Of a stretch of 64,000 nt of DNA, positions 9,709 to 56,955 are shown piece after piece. The stretch is from Polyangium sp. 15x6 (GTDB lineage: Bacteria > Myxococcota_A > Polyangia > Polyangiales > Polyangiaceae). The translations under genes and the position numbers were made by a program. The stretch covers positions 62,001-126,000 of the forward strand of contig NZ_JASBQE010000008.1 of NCBI RefSeq assembly GCF_029960785.1, given 5' to 3'. Each line of letters begins with the position of its first letter. Position 1 is the first letter of the stretch. Below the pieces are notes generated by a model. That model ran no database searches. It worked only from the letters and a program-made list of their open reading frames with translations, and was not told the origin of the DNA.

Positions 9709-9736
9709 TTGCACGGACGCCCGATTGTTCTATATG
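9709..9736 (+). promoter_or_regulatory. Possible promoter of the aminomutase-like gene
   Basis: TTGCAC (9709-9714), a 16-nt spacer and TATATG (9731-9736) lie 60 nt upstream of the ATG at 9796. The -10 box is reasonable and the -35 box weak; this is a pattern match only. Confidence 0.3.
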
Positions 9737-9795
9737 GCGCTCGTCAGCCGGGCGAGCCCGAGGGCCGCCGTCAATCACCCGCTTGGGGGCGCACC

Positions 9796-11178
9796 ATGAC
9801 TGCCCAAAGCCTCGTCGAGCTCAGCAAACGCACCTACGAAATCGTCCCGCTCAAGCCCCCCGTCGATCCGGCGAGGCTCGAGTACAAGAACTTCAAGGAA
9901 GCGCCGGACTGGCGGAGAATTCCCGCCTATGCCGACGTCACCGAGGAGCAATTCCTCGATCACCGCTGGCAGTCGAAGAAATCGATCACCCGGCCCGACA
10001 AGCTACTCGAAGCCCTGCGTGATCTCGTCTCCGAGGAGTTCATCAAGGACGCGACCGAGGGCTTTGCCCGCGCGCCGATGAGCGTGCGCGTCTCGCCGTA
10101 CCTGCTTTCGCTCATCGACTGGAACGACCCCTATCGGGACCCGCTGCGCACCCAGTTCATCCCGCTGAAATCGCGCTTCTTGCCGGATCACCCGAAGCTC
10201 GGGCTCGACTCGCTGCACGAGCGCGCGGACGCGCCGGTCCCAGGGCTCACGCACCGCTACACCGACAAGGCCCTCTTCCTCCCGCTCGATACCTGCCCGG
10301 TCTACTGCCGCTTCTGCACGCGCAGTTATGCGGTCGGCATCGACACCGAGGAGGTCGAGAAGACCCACTTCAAGGTCGACGAGGATCGCTGGCGGGCCGC
10401 GTACACCTACATCTCCTCGCGGCCCGAGCTCGAGGACATCGTGGTCTCGGGCGGCGACGCGTACAACCTGCGCCCCGAGCAGATTCGCTCGATTGGCGAG
10501 ACGCTGCTCGGCATGCCGAACATCCGGCGCATCCGCCTCGCCACGAAGGGCCCGGCCGTGATGCCGCAGAAGATCCTGACGGATAGCGAGTGGATCGACG
10601 CGGTCACGTACATCGCCGACCTCGGCCGCAAGCTGCACAAAGAGGTCGCGGTCCACACGCACTTCAACAACCCGAACGAGATCACGGGCATCACGCGCGA
10701 CGCGATGCAGAAGCTCTTCGAGCGTGGGATCCGCGTGCGCAACCAGAGCGTGCTCATCCGCGGCGTGAACGACGATCCGGAGACGATGAAGCTCCTCGTC
10801 AAGCGCCTCGGCCACCTCAACGTGCAGCCCTATTATGTGTACGTGCACGACCTCGTGAAGGGCGCCGAGGACCTGCGCACCACCGTGGCCACGGGCGAGC
10901 TCATCGAGAAGCACGTGCGCGGATCCACCGCGGGCTTCAACACGCCGACCGTCGTCGTCGACGCCCCCGGCGGCGGCGGCAAGCGCGACGTGCACTCCTA
11001 CGAGTTCTACGATCGCACCACAGGCATCAGCATCTTCGAGGCCCCGAGCGTCAAGCCCGGCCAGAAGTACCTCTACTTCGATCCGATCGATCGCCTCCCG
11101 GACGAGGGCCGCGCCCGCTGGGCCGACCCGCGCGAGCATCAGGCGATGATCGACGAGGCGATGCGCGCGATCTCCTGA
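9796..11178 (+). CDS. KamA-family radical SAM aminomutase (lysine 2,3-aminomutase-like)
   Basis: 460 aa from the ATG at 9796. The radical-SAM cluster is C167-x3-C171-x2-C174 ('CPVYCRFC'). The PLP-binding motif 'DAPGGGGK' places the PLP lysine at K396. The two acidic residues that bind the lysine epsilon-amino group in clostridial lysine 2,3-aminomutase (D293 and D330) have counterparts at D352 ('YVHDL') and D389, with the same 37-residue spacing. That favours lysine over glutamate as substrate, giving beta-lysine. No ablB-type beta-lysine acetyltransferase is adjacent, so the product's use (osmolyte or secondary metabolite) is open. The N-terminal ~100 residues are typical of the family. The gene ends at a hairpin array that fills the gap to the convergent WYL gene. 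Confidence 0.88.
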   Translation: MTAQSLVELSKRTYEIVPLKPPVDPARLEYKNFKEAPDWRRIPAYADVTEEQFLDHRWQSKKSITRPDKLLEALRDLVSEEFIKDATEGFARAPMSVRVSPYLLSLIDWNDPYRDPLRTQFIPLKSRFLPDHPKLGLDSLHERADAPVPGLTHRYTDKALFLPLDTCPVYCRFCTRSYAVGIDTEEVEKTHFKVDEDRWRAAYTYISSRPELEDIVVSGGDAYNLRPEQIRSIGETLLGMPNIRRIRLATKGPAVMPQKILTDSEWIDAVTYIADLGRKLHKEVAVHTHFNNPNEITGITRDAMQKLFERGIRVRNQSVLIRGVNDDPETMKLLVKRLGHLNVQPYYVYVHDLVKGAEDLRTTVATGELIEKHVRGSTAGFNTPTVVVDAPGGGGKRDVHSYEFYDRTTGISIFEAPSVKPGQKYLYFDPIDRLPDEGRARWADPREHQAMIDEAMRAIS

Positions 11179-11183
11179 GCGAC

Positions 11184-11498
11184 CGCTGCGCTGGGGCGTT
11201 GCCCCAGGCCCCACCAGGGGCTCTCCGCCCCTGGACCCGGACCAGCGCAAGCGCTGGACCCGGGGTCGATGAACTGCGCGATGCGCAGTTCATCGAACAG
11301 GCCGAGGCAAGACCGGCAACGAGTCTGCCGATCAAGACAGCCGCGCTGACATCAACCTCGATGGTCTTGCCACCGACCTGTGGAAGAACCGCGCATCGCG
11401 CGGTTCTTCCAACCCGAGTCCAGGGCTTGCCCTGGTTCGGGTCGAGGGGCGAACAGCCCCCGCGGGGCCCGGGGCAGAGCCCCGGCGCGGCGGCTCCA
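11184..11498 (+). repeat. Hairpin-array element, copy A
   Basis: The whole intergenic space between two convergent genes is a chain of nine perfect hairpins: 11191-11207, 11214-11234, 11242-11257, 11266-11296 (14-bp stem, loop gat), 11306-11371 (9-bp stem enclosing a 48-nt loop), 11382-11410 (13-bp stem, loop atc), 11420-11435, 11446-11460 and 11469-11485. A second copy with the same order lies at 54446-54770. Several stems differ between copies by paired changes that keep pairing. No open frame or T-tract is convincing. It may be a structured RNA, a bidirectional transcription barrier or a DNA cruciform element; I do not recognise it as a named family. Confidence 0.8.
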
Positions 11499-11509: not shown

Positions 11510-12724
11510 TCACGACGAGCGGCTCTTCTTCACCTTTGGCCGATCCTCGGGATCGGCCTCGTAGTTCGCCACGGCCTGCTCGAGCTCTCGCTTCACGCGC
11601 GTCACGAGATCGGCTGGCTCGAGCACGCGTGCCGTCTCGCCGAAGCCGAGGACCCACGACGTCAGCTCCGTCATGTCGCCGATGTCGAGCGAGAGCCGCA
11701 CGCCTCCGCCTTGCAGCTCCTCGATCACCTGCGACGGGTGCACCTTTCGGGTCCGTACGAAGTCGGCGACCTTTGCGCTGAAGTCGATCACCACGTGCGT
11801 CGACGCGCCGCCCGACCAGATGCCGAACGTCCCCTGGAAGTAGTCTTCGACCCGGAAATCTGCGGGCAAGTCGAAGCGCTCCGTCGTCGCGCACTCGGTG
11901 TCGCGCATGCGGTCGAGCAAGAACGTGCGGATCTCGCCGCGACCGGCGTGCAGACCGACGCAGTAGATCGCGTCCTTGTAGAGCACCATCGCGTACGGGT
12001 GGATGACGACCTTGTCTTCGCGCCCGTCCTTTGCGCGGCGATACCGGCACGAGAGCGGCCGCAGATCGGCGACCGCCTGGAAGAGATCGTCGAGCGCCTC
12101 CGTGTGCGCCGCGTAGTCCTTCGGCGCGAACGGCAGGTAGAGGAAACGCTCTTCGAGGCGCGCGTCCGCCACGCCTGCGTTCGGGCCGCGGCCGGGGCGG
12201 CGCGCGACGCCGAGGAGCTGCTGCGCTGCGAGATCGATCTCTTCGTAGAGCGTCGAGCCGCGCATCGGCTCGAACAAGCGCCGCGCGGCGAGCAGCGCGT
12301 AGGCCTGCGTCCGGCGGACCTCGACGCGGCGGGGCGCTTCGCCGGGGGCGAGACGCCAGAGGCGCGTCCCGCCGGGCTTGCTCGTGGTCGAGACGAGATC
12401 GAGATCGCGCCGCACCTCCGCTAGGTAGCGGCGCATCGATCGCGGCGTCACGTCGAGCTCGCGGGCGAGCTCGTAGATCGTCAGGCCCTTCGGGTGCCGC
12501 TGCAAAAGCGCGCGCAGCGTGTCGAGGCGCCGGTGCTGCGTGAATGGCCCCTTGGGCCGACCGCGCGGGCGCGTGGACGACGCGGATGATCCGCCTTGAG
12601 GGCTCGCTTGCGGCGCTCTTGCTTCGGACGCTGCGGCGCGGCCCGCGGCGGCGAGCGAGGCGGGCGCGGCGCGGCGCGCGGAGGAGAGGGCATCGCGTCC
12701 ACTGCTCGAAGTGCTGGATCCCAC
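11510..12724 (-). CDS. WYL-domain transcriptional regulator
   Basis: About 404 aa if the GTG at 12724 is used; the frame stays open to 13138, so the start is uncertain. After a low-complexity Ser/Ala/Arg leader and an 'RPRGRPKGP' AT-hook-like patch comes an HTH ('LRALLQRHPKGLTIYELARELDVTPRSMRRYL' region, DeoR/HTH_11 type). A WYL domain follows ('HPYAMVLYKDAIYCVGLH...GEIRTFLLDRM') and then a WCX-type C-terminal extension with 'WVLGFGETARVLEP'. WYL regulators bind nucleic acid or small ligands and often act as repressors of damage or defence genes; no such target is adjacent. Convergent with the aminomutase-like gene, divergent from the first MopE gene. Confidence 0.85.
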   Translation of the reverse strand: MGSSTSSSGRDALSSARRAAPASLAAAGRAAASEARAPQASPQGGSSASSTRPRGRPKGPFTQHRRLDTLRALLQRHPKGLTIYELARELDVTPRSMRRYLAEVRRDLDLVSTTSKPGGTRLWRLAPGEAPRRVEVRRTQAYALLAARRLFEPMRGSTLYEEIDLAAQQLLGVARRPGRGPNAGVADARLEERFLYLPFAPKDYAAHTEALDDLFQAVADLRPLSCRYRRAKDGREDKVVIHPYAMVLYKDAIYCVGLHAGRGEIRTFLLDRMRDTECATTERFDLPADFRVEDYFQGTFGIWSGGASTHVVIDFSAKVADFVRTRKVHPSQVIEELQGGGVRLSLDIGDMTELTSWVLGFGETARVLEPADLVTRVKRELEQAVANYEADPEDRPKVKKSRSS

Positions 12725-13058
12725 GGTATACACTTCGTTTATCGCAACGCGCGCCTCCGGGAAAGCGCGTTCGTGGCCGCGCCCGACGGGCTTCGCTTGC
12801 TCCGGCCTCTCCGGGCGCTCCTCCGGGGTTCGTCCGGGTGCACGGCTCGGGGATCGGGCCTCGGGCGCGCGCATCCACGTCGAATGCTTGACGGCCTGCG
12901 CGGCGGCCTTCTTCTGAAGTTGGGAACATCGCGCCTTGCTGGATCGCGCGCATGCGTGCGACCATGGACCATTGGCGCGCGTGCGTCCTCTGCAGTTCCT
13001 CCGCGACCCGGGGGAGGTGCGGGGCTCGCCCGATTCGGGCCAGCGGGGACAGGACACG
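12725..13058. other. Intergenic region between divergent WYL and MopE genes
   Basis: Either a 5' extension of the WYL gene or non-coding. The minus-strand frame upstream of 12724 has poor codon bias and Arg/Ser/Pro-rich composition, so I treat it as non-coding. A 'cggggacaggacacg' stretch just before the ATG at 13059 could serve as ribosome binding site. No clear promoter boxes were recognised. Confidence 0.4.
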
Positions 13059-16000
13059 ATGTTCACCAGGGTTCGTACACTTCTTGGGCAGCGCTCGGTG
13101 CAGGTGAAGGTCGGGACGATCGTCGGCCTCGCCGCCACGCTCGCCGCCGTGCGCCCGGCGCTCGCGGAGCCGGCGGCGTGTTTGTCCTTCGATCCTGCGG
13201 CGTGGCCGGCGCCGTCGAAGCCCTACTTCATGGTCATGTTCGACACGTCCGGATCGATGACGAGCGCCGTGGCCGGCACGCCGAACTCGTGCGGCTACGT
13301 GAACGACCGCCTCGGGCATGGCCGTTGCGCCATGAAAAACACCTTCCAGGCGTTCGCGGGGCAGGCGAATTTCGGGCTCGCGACCTTCGCCAAGGTCCAG
13401 AAGGGCTGTGACGCCGCGTGTACGCCCGCGGCCTGCCTTCACAGCGACTTCCCGAACTACGCCCCCATCCCGGGGTGCGGCACGGAGCCCGAGGAATGCG
13501 GCAACCCGCCCGTGGCCCAGCCGAACTCCGGCTGCCGCGACGGCGCGAACATCGTCGTCCCGCTGCTCATCGACAACTATTACAATCCGCCGCCGAACGT
13601 CTCGAACATCGGCGAGCTCCTCAAGTGGGTCGACAACGACTGCTCGGATCAGAAGGAGCTCTTCGCGCAGGGCAACACGCCTCTGAACGGCATGCTGCGC
13701 AGCGCCTACCGGTACTTCGCCGAGGGCTGGGCGAGCCCCGTGGTCGCGGGTCTCGTGCACCCCTCGCCGCTCGGGACTCTCGCGCAGGGTGAGCGGCCCT
13801 GTCGATCGGTCAACGTCATCCTCGTGACCGACGGCGGCGAGAACTGCGACACCGTCGAGGACGCGAAGGACGCCGCGGCGGATCTGCTCACGGGCTTCAC
13901 GAAGGGCGGCATCACCTGGAGCATCAAGACGCACGTCATCGACTTCGGCCAGGTCGGCTCGCAAGCCGACCAGATCGCGGCCGCCGGCGGCACGGGCGCG
14001 GCGCGGGATGCGACGAACGAGGCCTCGCTCAGCCTGGCCTTCGCGAACATCATCGCCGGCTCGATCAAGCCCGAGAGCTGCAACAACGCCGACGACAACT
14101 GCAACGGCTGCACCGATGAGGGCTTCGTCCACTACTGCAACAAGGGGCAAACCTGCTGCGCCTGGGCGACGCCGGCCCAGCGCGCGACCTGCCTCTCGAC
14201 GTACCAGGCCACGATCTCCGCGGCCGATCCCGACGGCGATCTCACGAAGCTGCCGTGCACGACGGCGGCCCAGCAGCAGGATCCGGCGAACTGGCTCTGC
14301 TTCAACCCGAAGGAGACCTGCGACAACGTCGACAACAACTGCGATCCCGAGGCCACGATCGACGGCGACCCGCCGAACACGGTCGACGAGGGCGTCTTCA
14401 AGTGCGGCAACCCCCTGCACTGCCCCGTCGCCGAGATCTGCAATGGCCAGGACGACGACTGCGACGGGCTCACCGACGAGGGACTCGGCGCCTCCTGCAC
14501 CTGCAAGCCCTCGCCCGAGGTCTGCGACGGCTGCGACAACGACTGCGACGGCGTCGCGGACAACGGCATCCCCGCGATCCCCTGCGGCCTCACGACCCCG
14601 GCGAACTGCGCGGGCACGCTTTCGTGCAAGCCGCCGCAGAACGTGCCCATCGGGACGTGCGTGCCGAGCGGCGGGTACAACGCCTGCCAGAACAATCCGA
14701 TGACCGAGACGTGCGACGGCGTCGACAACGACTGCGACGGCACGATCGACGACGGCGTCGCGGCGACCGAGTGCGTGCCCGCGGGCACGCCGTCGAACCT
14801 GAACTACGGCCCGAACAGCCAGTGCAAGAAGGGCACGCAGCCCTGCGGATCGAGCGTCTGCTCGGGCTTCGTGGGGCCGAGCGCCGAGATCTGCGACGGC
14901 ATCGACAACGACTGCGACGGCACCGTCGACGAGAGCCCCTTCGGCGTCGGCACGCCGTGCGGCGTGAACCAGCCGCCGTGCACGACGGGCCTCACGGCCT
15001 GCGTCAACGGCGCGCTCGTCTGCCAGGGCGGCGCGCAGCCCCAGGCCGAGGTCTGCGACGGCAAGGACAACGATTGCGACGGCTCGATCGACGAGACGCC
15101 GCTCGCGGATGCGCCGGCCGCCGGCATGAACGGGTGCTGGACGAACCCCGGCAATTGCTGCACGTTCGGCAACCTGCAATGGTGCCCGCCGCCCGGCGGG
15201 ACCTGCAATGGCACGGGCACGCTCACGGCGCCCTGCAACACCGGCAAGCTCGTCTGCCAGGGCCTGCAGAAGTGGGTGTGCGCGACGCCGAAGGCCCCCG
15301 AGCCCGAGGCCTGCGACGGCCTCGACAACGATTGCAATGGCATGGTCGACGACGGGAGCATCGCCCAGGTCGGTGAGCCCTGCGGGAGCGACACCGGCGA
15401 ATGCCAGATCGGCGCCCTCGCGTGCAGCGCCGGCGTGCTCGATTGCGTGGGCGACGTCGGCCCCACGCAGGAGCTCTGCGACGGCAAGGACAACGACTGC
15501 GACGGCACGATCGACAACGGCATCCTGGCCGGCGGCGCTTGCACCGTCGCGTACGACACGGCGCTTTACCCCGGCGATCGCAGCGCGGGCCCGTGCCAGC
15601 CGGGCGTCTTGCAATGCGACGGCCTGGGCGGGGCGAGCTGCACGGGCGGCATCGGCCCCTCGCCGGAGGTCTGCGACGGCCTCGACAACGATTGCGACGG
15701 CAAGGTCGACGAGAGCGGCCCCGCGCCGGACGGCATCGACGGCTCAGCGAACCCCGCCCCGCCGCCGGCCGTGAACATCGGCGATCCTTGCGGCCTCAAC
15801 GTCGGCGTCTGCGCCGAGGGCACATATGGCTGCGTCAATGGCCAGGTCACGTGCGTCGGCGGCATGGAGGCCACGGACGAGTCCTGCGATTGCCTCGACA
15901 ACGACTGCGACGGCACGAGCGACGAGCAGGATCCGGGCAAGCCGAAGCTCTGCAGCACGGGCAAGGAGTGCGTGAAGAGCGGCAATGCGTGCGCGTGCGC

Positions 16001-53895: not shown

Positions 53896-54402
53896 GAGCG
53901 GAGGGGATCGAAGGTTGGGGTAACTGTCAAGGGGGATGGTTCGAGCGGGAGCGGGAGCGGAAGGCGGCGCGCGTCAACCTTCCTCGCGAGGAGCGCATGG
54001 GGGTAGGCGAGCAGAATGGGTGAGTGCGTCGCGATCGGAGCGGACGTTCGCCCGCGAGGATGCCCAGGGGCAAAGGCACGGGCGAAGGATCGGGCGTGAG
54101 GGATGGGTGGGGGCATCCCGGCGCGGCGACCCCGCGGCCGACGGGATGCCCGGGGGCATGGCGAGCCCCCGGACGACCGGCCGACGGGATGCCCAGGGGC
54201 ATCCGCTCCGAGGGACGGAGCAGGCACGGGGGCTCCGTCCGCGCATGGGGGAGCGGCAGACGCGCGGGCGGTCGGATGGGGGGACCAAGGGACGGGAGGG
54301 AGGGACGGGCGCTCCGGGATGGGTAGGAGCATCTCGAAGGGCTCCGCTCGGCTCGCCCCGGCCGCGCCCGAAGGCTGAGGCTCCGCGTATCCGTCCCCCC
54401 AG
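53896..54402. repeat. Intergenic region with palindromic direct repeats
   Basis: No credible gene; open frames are Pro/Arg-rich. A 24-bp sequence at 54136-54159 is repeated at 54179-54202 with one mismatch and is centred on a palindrome (gatgccc-ag-gggcatc at 54188-54203); a partial third occurrence is at 54058-54072. Confidence 0.55.
53989..54017. repeat. 29-bp block shared with 62717-62745
   Basis: The block 53989-54017 matches 62717-62745 at 27 of 29 positions, and a gcgcgcgtcaacc stretch occurs shortly before both. Read on the minus strand both give similar peptides (ILLAYPHALL and IVLACPHALL), so they may be relics of the end of one gene family. Confidence 0.5.
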
Positions 54403-54806
54403 CCCCTCTCCCGGGACGGGCTGAGCATTGGTCTCATCTGGGAGGCGCTTCGCTGGGGCGTTGCCCCAGGCCCCACCCGGGGCTATCCGCCCCGGGACCC
54501 GGACCAGCGCAAGCGCTGGACCGTTTATCGATGAACTGCGCGATGCGCAGTTCATCGAACAGGCCGAGTCAAGACCAGCGACGATCCTGCCAAACAAGAC
54601 AGCCGCGCCGACCTTTCGATCGGCAACGCTGTCCCTGGTCTTGCACCGGCCTGTTGGAAGAATTGCGCATCGCGCAGTTCTTCCATCCCAGTCCAGCGCT
54701 TGCGCTGGTTCGGGTCGAGGGGCGAACAGCCCCCGCGGGGTCCGGGGCAGAGCCCCGGCACGGCGGCCCCAAGAAGAGACCAATGCTCAGCGGGACGGGA
54801 GAGGGG
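54403..54806 (+). repeat. Hairpin-array element, copy B, inside a long inverted repeat
   Basis: The core 54446-54770 repeats the hairpin order of copy A (11184-11498), in the same orientation. It is enclosed by a terminal inverted repeat: ctgagcattggtctc (54421-54435) with its perfect complement at 54776-54790, plus an outer 11-bp pair cccctctcccg (54403-54413) with cgggagagggg (54796-54806). The whole 404 bp can fold on itself. Copy A lacks the terminal repeat, so the core is the conserved unit. No open frame is supported. Confidence 0.78.
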
Positions 54807-54924
54807 CGAGGGTGGCGAACGACGTCCGTATTGCCGGTATTCAGCTACGTGCGTGCGGATGGGCATACCACCAGCGCTTCACACGTCTCGCTAGGCCAGA
54901 CGGGGAGAAGGGGCGAGAGACGGG

Positions 54925-56955
54925 TCAGTCATAGCAGCAGAGCGCACCGGCGCTCGGATTGGACGCACAGCCACCGAAGAAGTTGGGAGTCGTCTCGTTC
55001 TCGTACGTGCACCCCGTCCACGTGCAGGAATTTCCTTCCGCGTCCGAGTTGCCAGAGCAGACGCGCATCGGACGTTTGCTTTTCCCAGCGCCGTCAATGT
55101 CGCCGCAGCCTGTTCCCGTGGGGGTTGCCTTGGCGGCGCAGTTGTTCGAACCCGAGCCGGTATAGCCAAGGTCCGATGCCCCATTGTCAACCCAGTAGAT
55201 GTGCCCGGGGGACGCCACCCCCCGATTGGCGTTCCACTCCTCGGCGGTGCACACGTGCATCCGATAGCCGCAGAGGCTCTCTCGGTTGGCATAGGACACG
55301 GTGCCCGCGCAGCCAACCATGTCCGAAGAGAAGTACTGTTCGACGCTGCCATCCGCACAAGGACGGTTCGCGCAGCAGAGCGCGCCTGCCGTGGGGTTGC
55401 CGATACAGCCTCCCCAATAATTCGCACTGGATGAAGTCTGGTACTTGCATCCAGTCCAGTTGCACGCATTCCCCTCTGCATCCGAATTCCCCGAGCAGAT
55501 TCGCATCGGTGAGTTTCCGCTGTTGCCGCACGTCGTGCCCGCAGGCGAGTCGGTCAGGTAGCGTGCCGAACAGCTGCCCGAAGTGCCGAAAAAGCCCAAT
55601 TCGGTGGAGCCATGGTCCGTCCAGTAGATGTGGTCCGGGGCTTCTGCGCCTCTCCTGTCTTCCCATTCGTCCGGCGTGCACACATGGGTCTCGGAGCCGC
55701 ACAGCGTAGCCTTATTTGGATAGGTTACCGAACCTGGGCACCCCCACATCTCGTCGCCCAATTTTTCAGCAGGAACCCCATCTGCACAGAGCTTGGTTTC
55801 ATCCCAAGCCTCGATAATCGCCTGCGAGCCTGTGCCTGTCTCCATGTTGGTGCTCAGCACCAACGCCGTCCCAGGATAGTCCTTGAAGAAGAAGCCCCAC
55901 GAATTGTAGTTCAAACTGCCGCTCACGGGGAGCATGCCCCCCTTTCGCACATGAGGGGTCCCGCCGATGGTCGTCGACGAAACATCAATACCGTAGCCTG
56001 TCTCGAAAACCATATCGACAGCCGCCGGCGACAGGATATCTCCAGCATACAGCCTGGAGAAGAACTTGGCTGTGTCGTACGCCGTCAGAGCGAATCCACC
56101 AGTTCCGCATCCTGTACTCCAGTCCGGACCGAGCTGGACGCCCGCGGTCGTACTCACAGCACCATTCGGATAGGCGAAGGGTTTACGGGAGAGAGTGTGC
56201 AAGCAGCCTGAATATGCCGCTTCCCATCCAAGATAGTTATCCCTTACGTACGTATCCAATAGATGCCCTGAAGTATAAACCTCCGACTGACCGAGATCCG
56301 ACGCTTCCTGGGGCAGGTTGGTCGTCATGTTGGCAATGAGCACTTGGAGCAACACGTACCCCATGGCGTTGTACGCATAGGACCCGCTGTCGAGGCACAC
56401 ACCGCTGACCGGATCCGCGTCGCAACCCGCCGTGAACCAGTTGTTGAACGCTGAAACGCTGTTCCAAGCCGTCCCCGTGGGCATGCCGCTCGTGTGTTTC
56501 AACAGCTGATGGAAGGTAATGTATTCCAGGCCCGGGCCTCGGGACGACCACCACGAGCTAGGGATGTAGGCTGCAATGGAGGTGCTGGGACTGATGTTGT
56601 ATGCATCGAGAACTTCCGCCACGCGCGCGGCAGTGATGACCTTGGAAACACTCGCGATGGGCATCGGAATGTCGAAGGCCATGGTCGAGATGGCGGTGCT
56701 GTGCGTCGTCACATCCGACGCGCTCACAGCGAACCCGTAATTGCGCATGATCTCGCAGAACTGGCCATTGGGCTGCTTGCGAACGATCGCCAGTTGCGTT
56801 CCGCCGTTCGGATTGAAGTGCGCCTCGACTCTATTCGCAAACGCTGACAGCTCTGCATAAGTGGCCGTATCGCATGCGGCCCAGGCATCGGTGGGATACG
56901 CCATCAGGGCCATGGCAGAGCCAACGAGGCCCAAGACTGTTTTTCTTTTCAACAT
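54925..56955 (-). CDS. Secreted beta-lactamase-fold serine hydrolase with two Cys-rich C-terminal repeats
   Basis: 676 aa. Signal peptide 'LVGSAMALMAYPTDAWA'. Residues ~30-390 form a class C beta-lactamase/penicillin-binding-like domain: S102-V-S-K105 (SxxK), 'LLKHTSGMPTG', and 'YNAMGYVLLQ' where family members have Y-S/A-N, so the Asn is replaced by Ala. Two ~130-residue Cys-rich repeats follow, each with 'HVCT..EW', 'P.HIYW.D.G', 'PMR.CSGNSDAEGN.C.WTGC' and 'AGALCC'. The gene is visibly less GC-rich than its neighbours. A good ribosome site (aaaggtg) precedes the ATG at 56955. Likely a peptidase or esterase targeted by its repeats to a surface; specificity unknown. Confidence 0.88.
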   Translation of the reverse strand: MLKRKTVLGLVGSAMALMAYPTDAWAACDTATYAELSAFANRVEAHFNPNGGTQLAIVRKQPNGQFCEIMRNYGFAVSASDVTTHSTAISTMAFDIPMPIASVSKVITAARVAEVLDAYNISPSTSIAAYIPSSWWSSRGPGLEYITFHQLLKHTSGMPTGTAWNSVSAFNNWFTAGCDADPVSGVCLDSGSYAYNAMGYVLLQVLIANMTTNLPQEASDLGQSEVYTSGHLLDTYVRDNYLGWEAAYSGCLHTLSRKPFAYPNGAVSTTAGVQLGPDWSTGCGTGGFALTAYDTAKFFSRLYAGDILSPAAVDMVFETGYGIDVSSTTIGGTPHVRKGGMLPVSGSLNYNSWGFFFKDYPGTALVLSTNMETGTGSQAIIEAWDETKLCADGVPAEKLGDEMWGCPGSVTYPNKATLCGSETHVCTPDEWEDRRGAEAPDHIYWTDHGSTELGFFGTSGSCSARYLTDSPAGTTCGNSGNSPMRICSGNSDAEGNACNWTGCKYQTSSSANYWGGCIGNPTAGALCCANRPCADGSVEQYFSSDMVGCAGTVSYANRESLCGYRMHVCTAEEWNANRGVASPGHIYWVDNGASDLGYTGSGSNNCAAKATPTGTGCGDIDGAGKSKRPMRVCSGNSDAEGNSCTWTGCTYENETTPNFFGGCASNPSAGALCCYD

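Follow-up and report, generated by a model that had tools for sequence, protein, structure and literature searches.

Two copies of an array of hairpins lie in the window analyzed here, a 64,000-nucleotide stretch of the Polyangium sp. 15x6 genome, and the copies differ by changes that are often paired within the stems. The locus thus raises the question of what kind of element this is and whether its pairing reflects selection on a folded form, as the first-pass annotation had proposed. The account that we consider probable is that a miniature inverted-repeat transposable element (MITE) was moved in trans and that its hairpins were kept as a bidirectional 3′ end.

Hairpin architecture and covariation

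Both copies are present in the window with an identical order of hairpins. The element core consists of eight hairpins, H1 to H4 in the left arm and H4 to H1 in the right arm, around a variable centre; taken as a whole, the core also forms a single long, imperfect palindrome with paralogous arms. Of the nine hairpins initially counted, eight are well supported (68 pairs), whereas the ninth, central one is variable and unsupported as a fixed stem. Copy A had been described as filling the gap between two convergent genes exactly, which is nearly the case, as the upstream stop (11178) lies 5 bp from the core and the other stop (11510) 11 bp. Copy B, placed at 54446-54770, is present but extends further, to 54421-54790 with its terminal repeats. 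The features are as follows, in window coordinates.

9709-11178, + strand: gene upstream of copy A, convergent, radical SAM/lysine-2,3-aminomutase-like
11184-11498, + strand: copy A, element core, both outer terminal repeats lost (no terminal inverted repeat match nearby at ≤3 mismatches)
11191-11207, + strand: copy A hairpin H1L, 7 bp
11214-11234, + strand: copy A hairpin H2L, 8 bp, double changes in five pairs
11242-11257, + strand: copy A hairpin H3L, 7 bp
11266-11296, + strand: copy A hairpin H4L, 14 bp
11297-11381, + strand: copy A variable centre
11382-11410, + strand: copy A hairpin H4R, 13 bp, double changes in four pairs
11420-11435, + strand: copy A hairpin H3R, 7 bp
11446-11460, + strand: copy A hairpin H2R, 5 bp
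11469-11485, + strand: copy A hairpin H1R, 7 bp
11510-13138, − strand: gene downstream of copy A, convergent, HTH-WYL-WCX regulator
54402-54413, + strand: left arm GCCCCTCTCCCG of an older hairpin, with copy B in its loop
54412-54420, + strand: copy B left target-site duplication CGGGACGGG
54421-54790, + strand: copy B, full 370-bp element, both terminal inverted repeats present
54421-54438, + strand: copy B left terminal inverted repeat CTGAGCATTGGTCTCATC, 0 mismatches
54773-54790, − strand: copy B right terminal inverted repeat CTGAGCATTGGTCTCTTC, 1 mismatch
54791-54799, + strand: copy B right target-site duplication CGGGACGGG
54796-54807, + strand: right arm CGGGAGAGGGGC of the older hairpin
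54925-56955, − strand: beta-lactamase-family gene, 3′ end towards copy B

The predicted folds are far more stable than those of shuffled sequences (z = −17.6 for copy A and −18.5 for copy B), and the hairpin pattern had no match in the shuffled window; a chance origin of the array is excluded. The stem changes read between the two copies proved exact: A-T to C-G in stem 2, G-C to C-G in stem 7, and C-G to T-A together with one C-G to T-G in stem 6, making three fully paired changes and one wobble. Across an alignment of 64 copies from six Polyangium genomes, 99.6% of cells in the local hairpins were paired, and both sides had changed in 16 pairs. This corresponds to 80 double-changed cells, against 12.6 in shuffles and at most 8 in slid controls, and none of 500 shuffles reached the observed covariation. 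We also considered a long hairpin between the two arms, which the minimum-energy fold partly adopts, and rejected it as the selected structure. It covaries weakly and is 92.5% paired, barely above the 92.3% of shuffles, so covariation picks out the local hairpins only.

A wider set of 180 copies contained 340 double-changed cells versus 154 non-Watson-Crick cells, with 96% conservation in stems and 82% in linkers. The non-Watson-Crick cells included 34 G-T and 22 A-C, and with no clear G-T bias, the changes do not single out RNA over DNA as the molecule under selection. Further copies exist and their stem differences are paired, the two outcomes on which the first-pass annotation had staked its reading. 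Its conclusion that covariation indicates a selected fold holds only in part: the local hairpins do covary, but paired changes alone are no proof of selection.

Transposon ends, target sites and a Tn5-like partner

The 9-bp target duplication of copy B, CGGGACGGG, is perfect and flanks both terminal repeats. Among 169 distinct cores, terminal inverted repeats were found on both sides of 21, on one side of 29 and on neither side of 119, with no match at 783 control positions; about 70% of copies, copy A included, have thus lost both ends. Target duplications of 8-10 matching bp flank 10 of the 21 two-ended copies. The element, of about 350-390 bp, measures 336-392 bp between its ends and encodes no transposase. 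By searching with joined flanks, we located uninterrupted orthologous sites with a single target copy in relatives for five element loci (L087, L040, L085, L084 and L166). The flanks of copy B gave one distant match in relatives (76%, in genome G003) and no empty site. Each genome has 8 to 64 occurrences of the end pattern, against none in the reversed control. Many of them sit about 100 bp from the end of a contig, a placement to be expected where a multicopy insertion sequence (IS) breaks assemblies. Terminal repeats held in common with an autonomous IS, target duplications with empty sites, and short, high-copy, transposase-less units all point to a MITE, and the element is very probably a non-autonomous transposon of this kind. 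The initial reading gave no named family for the arrangement and missed this identity and the Tn5-like transposase.

MITE-type ends also bound a 1.5-kb IS in the near-complete genome G005 (copies L079-L082), whose left end, CTGAGCACTGGTCTCATC, is one base off the MITE end. Its product is a 475-aa transposase with the Pfam domains Tnp_DNA_bind, DDE_Tnp_1 and Dimer_Tnp_Tn5; it scores 255 bits against NCBIfam IS4, and its match to the solved Tn5 transposase has a value of 4.5e-36. The IS target duplication measures about one helix turn, as in the IS4/IS50 group; duplications in the IS4 family are typically about 10 bp (PMC2266710). The partner IS belongs to the IS4 family, Tn5/IS50 group. Four full-length copies were found in G005 and one in G002, and the assembly of the window genome holds transposase fragments only. 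Many contigs of G003, apparently P. fumosum (e.g., C20, C114 and C172), end inside identical Tn5-like IS copies, so the IS copy number there is underestimated.

The duplicated target GGCACGGCC flanks IS copies L081 and L082 as well as a passenger element, L078, and all three appear to lie inside the H3R hairpin of the MITE family. The last of these (L078:535-2627) is a 2.1-kb element with MITE-type terminal repeats and a target duplication; it lacks a transposase, and its cargo is a lipoprotein-like reading frame that matches nothing in Pfam, making it a possible passenger-gene transposon. In a further 1-kb element (L076:529-1540), the palindromic arms form the two ends and enclose about 700 bp rich in repeats. 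We infer that the MITE is mobilized in trans: the IS4-family, Tn5/IS50-group transposase would recognize the ends CTGAGCATNGGTCTCATC. The element inserts with a 9-10 bp target duplication, at times in a GC-rich hairpin loop.

The reconstructed targets are consistent with such loops as landing sites. For ten targets, the mean net stem at the insertion point was 6.2 versus 3.55 at random flank positions (p < 5e-5), although these control positions are mostly coding, so part of the hairpin excess may reflect intergenic landing. Insertion in a clear GC-rich hairpin loop was seen in four of the ten clean cases, copy B among them; several ancestral sites have no strong hairpin. The MITE has landed repeatedly in one recurrent intergenic REP-like hairpin, GCCCCTCTCCC...GGGAGAGGGGC, seen in the window (54402-54413/54796-54807) and at L084, L040, L236, L242, L243 and L262.

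The copies number in the hundreds. Measured as pattern counts, the longest hairpin has 521 matches in the window genome, about two per element, and 52 to 436 in four genomes of the same genus; a slightly narrower pattern gave 200 in a fifth, and reversed controls gave none in each case. A core search of the window genome returned 456 first-look candidates, of which 40 were scored. Because the copies analyzed were the best-scoring of each genome, badly decayed copies are under-represented. The element was found in all five other Polyangium genomes compared and was absent from 24 other genera save for a single marginal hit in two (E about 5e-4), and a scan of named genomes had only Polyangium, including P. 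fumosum, among the matches listed. In the literature outside subscription papers, we found such elements described neither for Polyangium nor for any other myxobacterium.

Persistence at gene 3′ ends

Facing stop codons lie a median of 13 bp from the element (158 of 205 within 30 bp). By a simple gene caller, 75 of 147 placements (51%) are convergent junctions versus 46 of 221 (21%) in an orientation baseline taken from one relative (odds ratio 4.0, p = 2.4e-9). The site of copy A is occupied by the element in G004 and G002; in G003 and G005 it is instead a spacer of 60 bp containing an ordinary terminator hairpin and T run, and in G001 a reduced array made up of other hairpins. Other old sites in relatives hold a short spacer, a REP-like hairpin (CCCCTCTCCC...GGGAGAGGGG) or an array of different hairpins. 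We also observed unrelated 100-300 bp hairpin arrays in the same 3′-intergenic slots of relatives (L224, L228, L234 and L268), the array at L224 and L268 being common to G005 and G003. Such sites would be 3′-end slots that different hairpins come to occupy.

Copies lacking both terminal repeats have stems that are 99.1% Watson-Crick paired, no worse than those of two-ended copies, while their linkers have diverged by 17%; stems diverging at that rate would keep about 68% of their pairs. With the ends lost and the stems still paired, recent jumping through these ends cannot explain such copies. After insertion at gene 3′ ends, the transposon ends decay or are deleted and the eight nested hairpins stay paired. 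In the mechanism we propose, the array would take over from the terminator formerly at the site and act as a bidirectional transcript 3′ end, assisting termination or protecting and insulating RNA between convergent genes. On the sequence evidence, we regard such a role in termination or RNA protection as a serious possibility, of slightly less than even weight. A simple scan of copy A found no U tract and no terminator-like match, leaving classical intrinsic termination unsupported. A more far-reaching version, which we hold to be unlikely, is that the arrays are self-spreading terminators: a hairpin-loop-preferring Tn5-like transposase would deliver MITEs with bidirectional arrays of 3′-end hairpins to existing terminators, and the inserts would replace these, lose their ends and be kept by selection.

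The family is uniform within genomes. Of 180 copies, 150 have their nearest relative within their own genome (33 expected), and sharing an orthologous site does not consistently bring copies closer to each other than to the rest. Several pairs in this test of descent were mis-anchored where the ortholog is inverted or composite, which biases the median percentile low; with these left out, percentiles ranged from about 0.05 to 0.97 without a consistent excess. At some orthologous sites, the orientation of the element differs. Gene conversion or repeated new insertion into the same slots may keep the family uniform, and either would do. Since copies are homogenized within genomes, their paired changes cannot simply be read as selection on the fold. 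We infer that selection, rather than templated repair, is the cause of stem pairing, to which hairpin-templated repair or gene conversion could contribute.

The best-surviving rival makes the opposite choice: a purely selfish MITE without host function, its pairing kept by templated quasipalindrome repair, cruciform resolution and gene conversion. The excess of paired changes over half-changed intermediates in the 180 copies, the same-genome relationships and the unlike orientations at orthologous sites all favor it, and avoidance of promoters and genes combined with hairpin targeting could explain part of the placement. Taken alone, however, it leaves unexplained why end-less cores persist by stop codons and between convergent genes, and why terminators are absent at occupied sites, and we consider it the less likely explanation.

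The sampled element sites of G005 (contig C1, n = 87) show a strong bias to the half around the replication terminus, and the GC-skew origin has none nearby; counts in 13 bins of 1.02 Mb are 0, 1, 4, 5, 7, 22, 19, 18, 6, 5, 0, 0 and 0. All 87 lie at 1.3-10.0 Mb with a peak at 5-8 Mb near the GC-skew terminus, as would suit a chromosome-organizing site (for a nucleoid protein or gyrase, for example) acting mainly in that half. Accessory DNA tends to accumulate away from the origin anyway, however, and the pattern comes from a subset of sites in one genome, while copy number differs tenfold between genomes; we consider this role improbable. A structured non-coding RNA or riboswitch with a regulatory role would account for the strong, stable and covarying fold, but it is very improbable given that no Rfam family matched above its gathering score in the window, that there is no promoter-like site, and that copies lie downstream of genes at hundreds of places with target duplications and empty sites that show mobility. 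Least probable of all is a REPIN-like element spread, as REP sequences are, by a RAYT (Y1 tyrosine transposase): the extragenic, palindromic, high-copy character and compensatory hairpin changes recall those reported for REPINs (PMC3116915), but we rejected this mobilization because three of the six genomes (G002, G004 and G005, which hold 200-436 hairpin matches) lack the Y1 family and the window genome has just a fragment of it, and because 9-10 bp duplications with Tn5-type ends are traits of DDE transposons.

Relation to known elements and significance

The Polyangium element resembles other bacterial MITEs (Correia elements, RUP, MITEAba12 and TIMEs), which are likewise short, non-autonomous and high-copy, with inverted-repeat ends and target duplications; they are mobilized in trans by an IS transposase, as the Polyangium element probably is. 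It differs in that its ends correspond to those of an IS4/IS50-group IS and not to those of IS630 or Tn3 (PMC2817692, PMC4133298), and in its interior of eight nested perfect hairpins, which covary and persist after the ends are gone. With REP, BIME and REPIN sequences it has in common extragenic palindromes by gene 3′ ends, compensatory stem changes and a role as IS targets; in contrast, it is about ten times longer than single REPs, carries DDE-type target duplications and has no RAYT in half the genomes. The partner IS has the transposase domains and CTG-starting ends of Tn5/IS50, whereas the MITE encodes no transposase and has a target preference that includes hairpin loops. ISRm22, an IS4-family member that inserts into REP palindromes (PMC1525189), ISPpu9 and IS1397 similarly enter extragenic palindromes; in Polyangium, however, it is a MITE that enters hairpins, while the partner IS appears to enter the H3R hairpin of the MITE. 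MITEs themselves are known; what is new here is that a Tn5-like IS has a large palindromic MITE, and that this MITE keeps its hairpin array once its ends have decayed.

If the copies do serve as 3′ ends, hundreds of genes in Polyangium, a large genus rich in natural products, owe their transcript boundaries to a transposon, and terminator turnover would be directly readable from occupied versus empty orthologous sites. Should the arrays also prove to be terminators that spread themselves, the 3′ ends of hundreds of genes in a single genus would have been rewritten by a mobile element. If they have no 3′-end role, the family would provide a clean natural test of paired stem changes arising without selection on the fold, which bears on every RNA-structure claim made from covariation in repeats.
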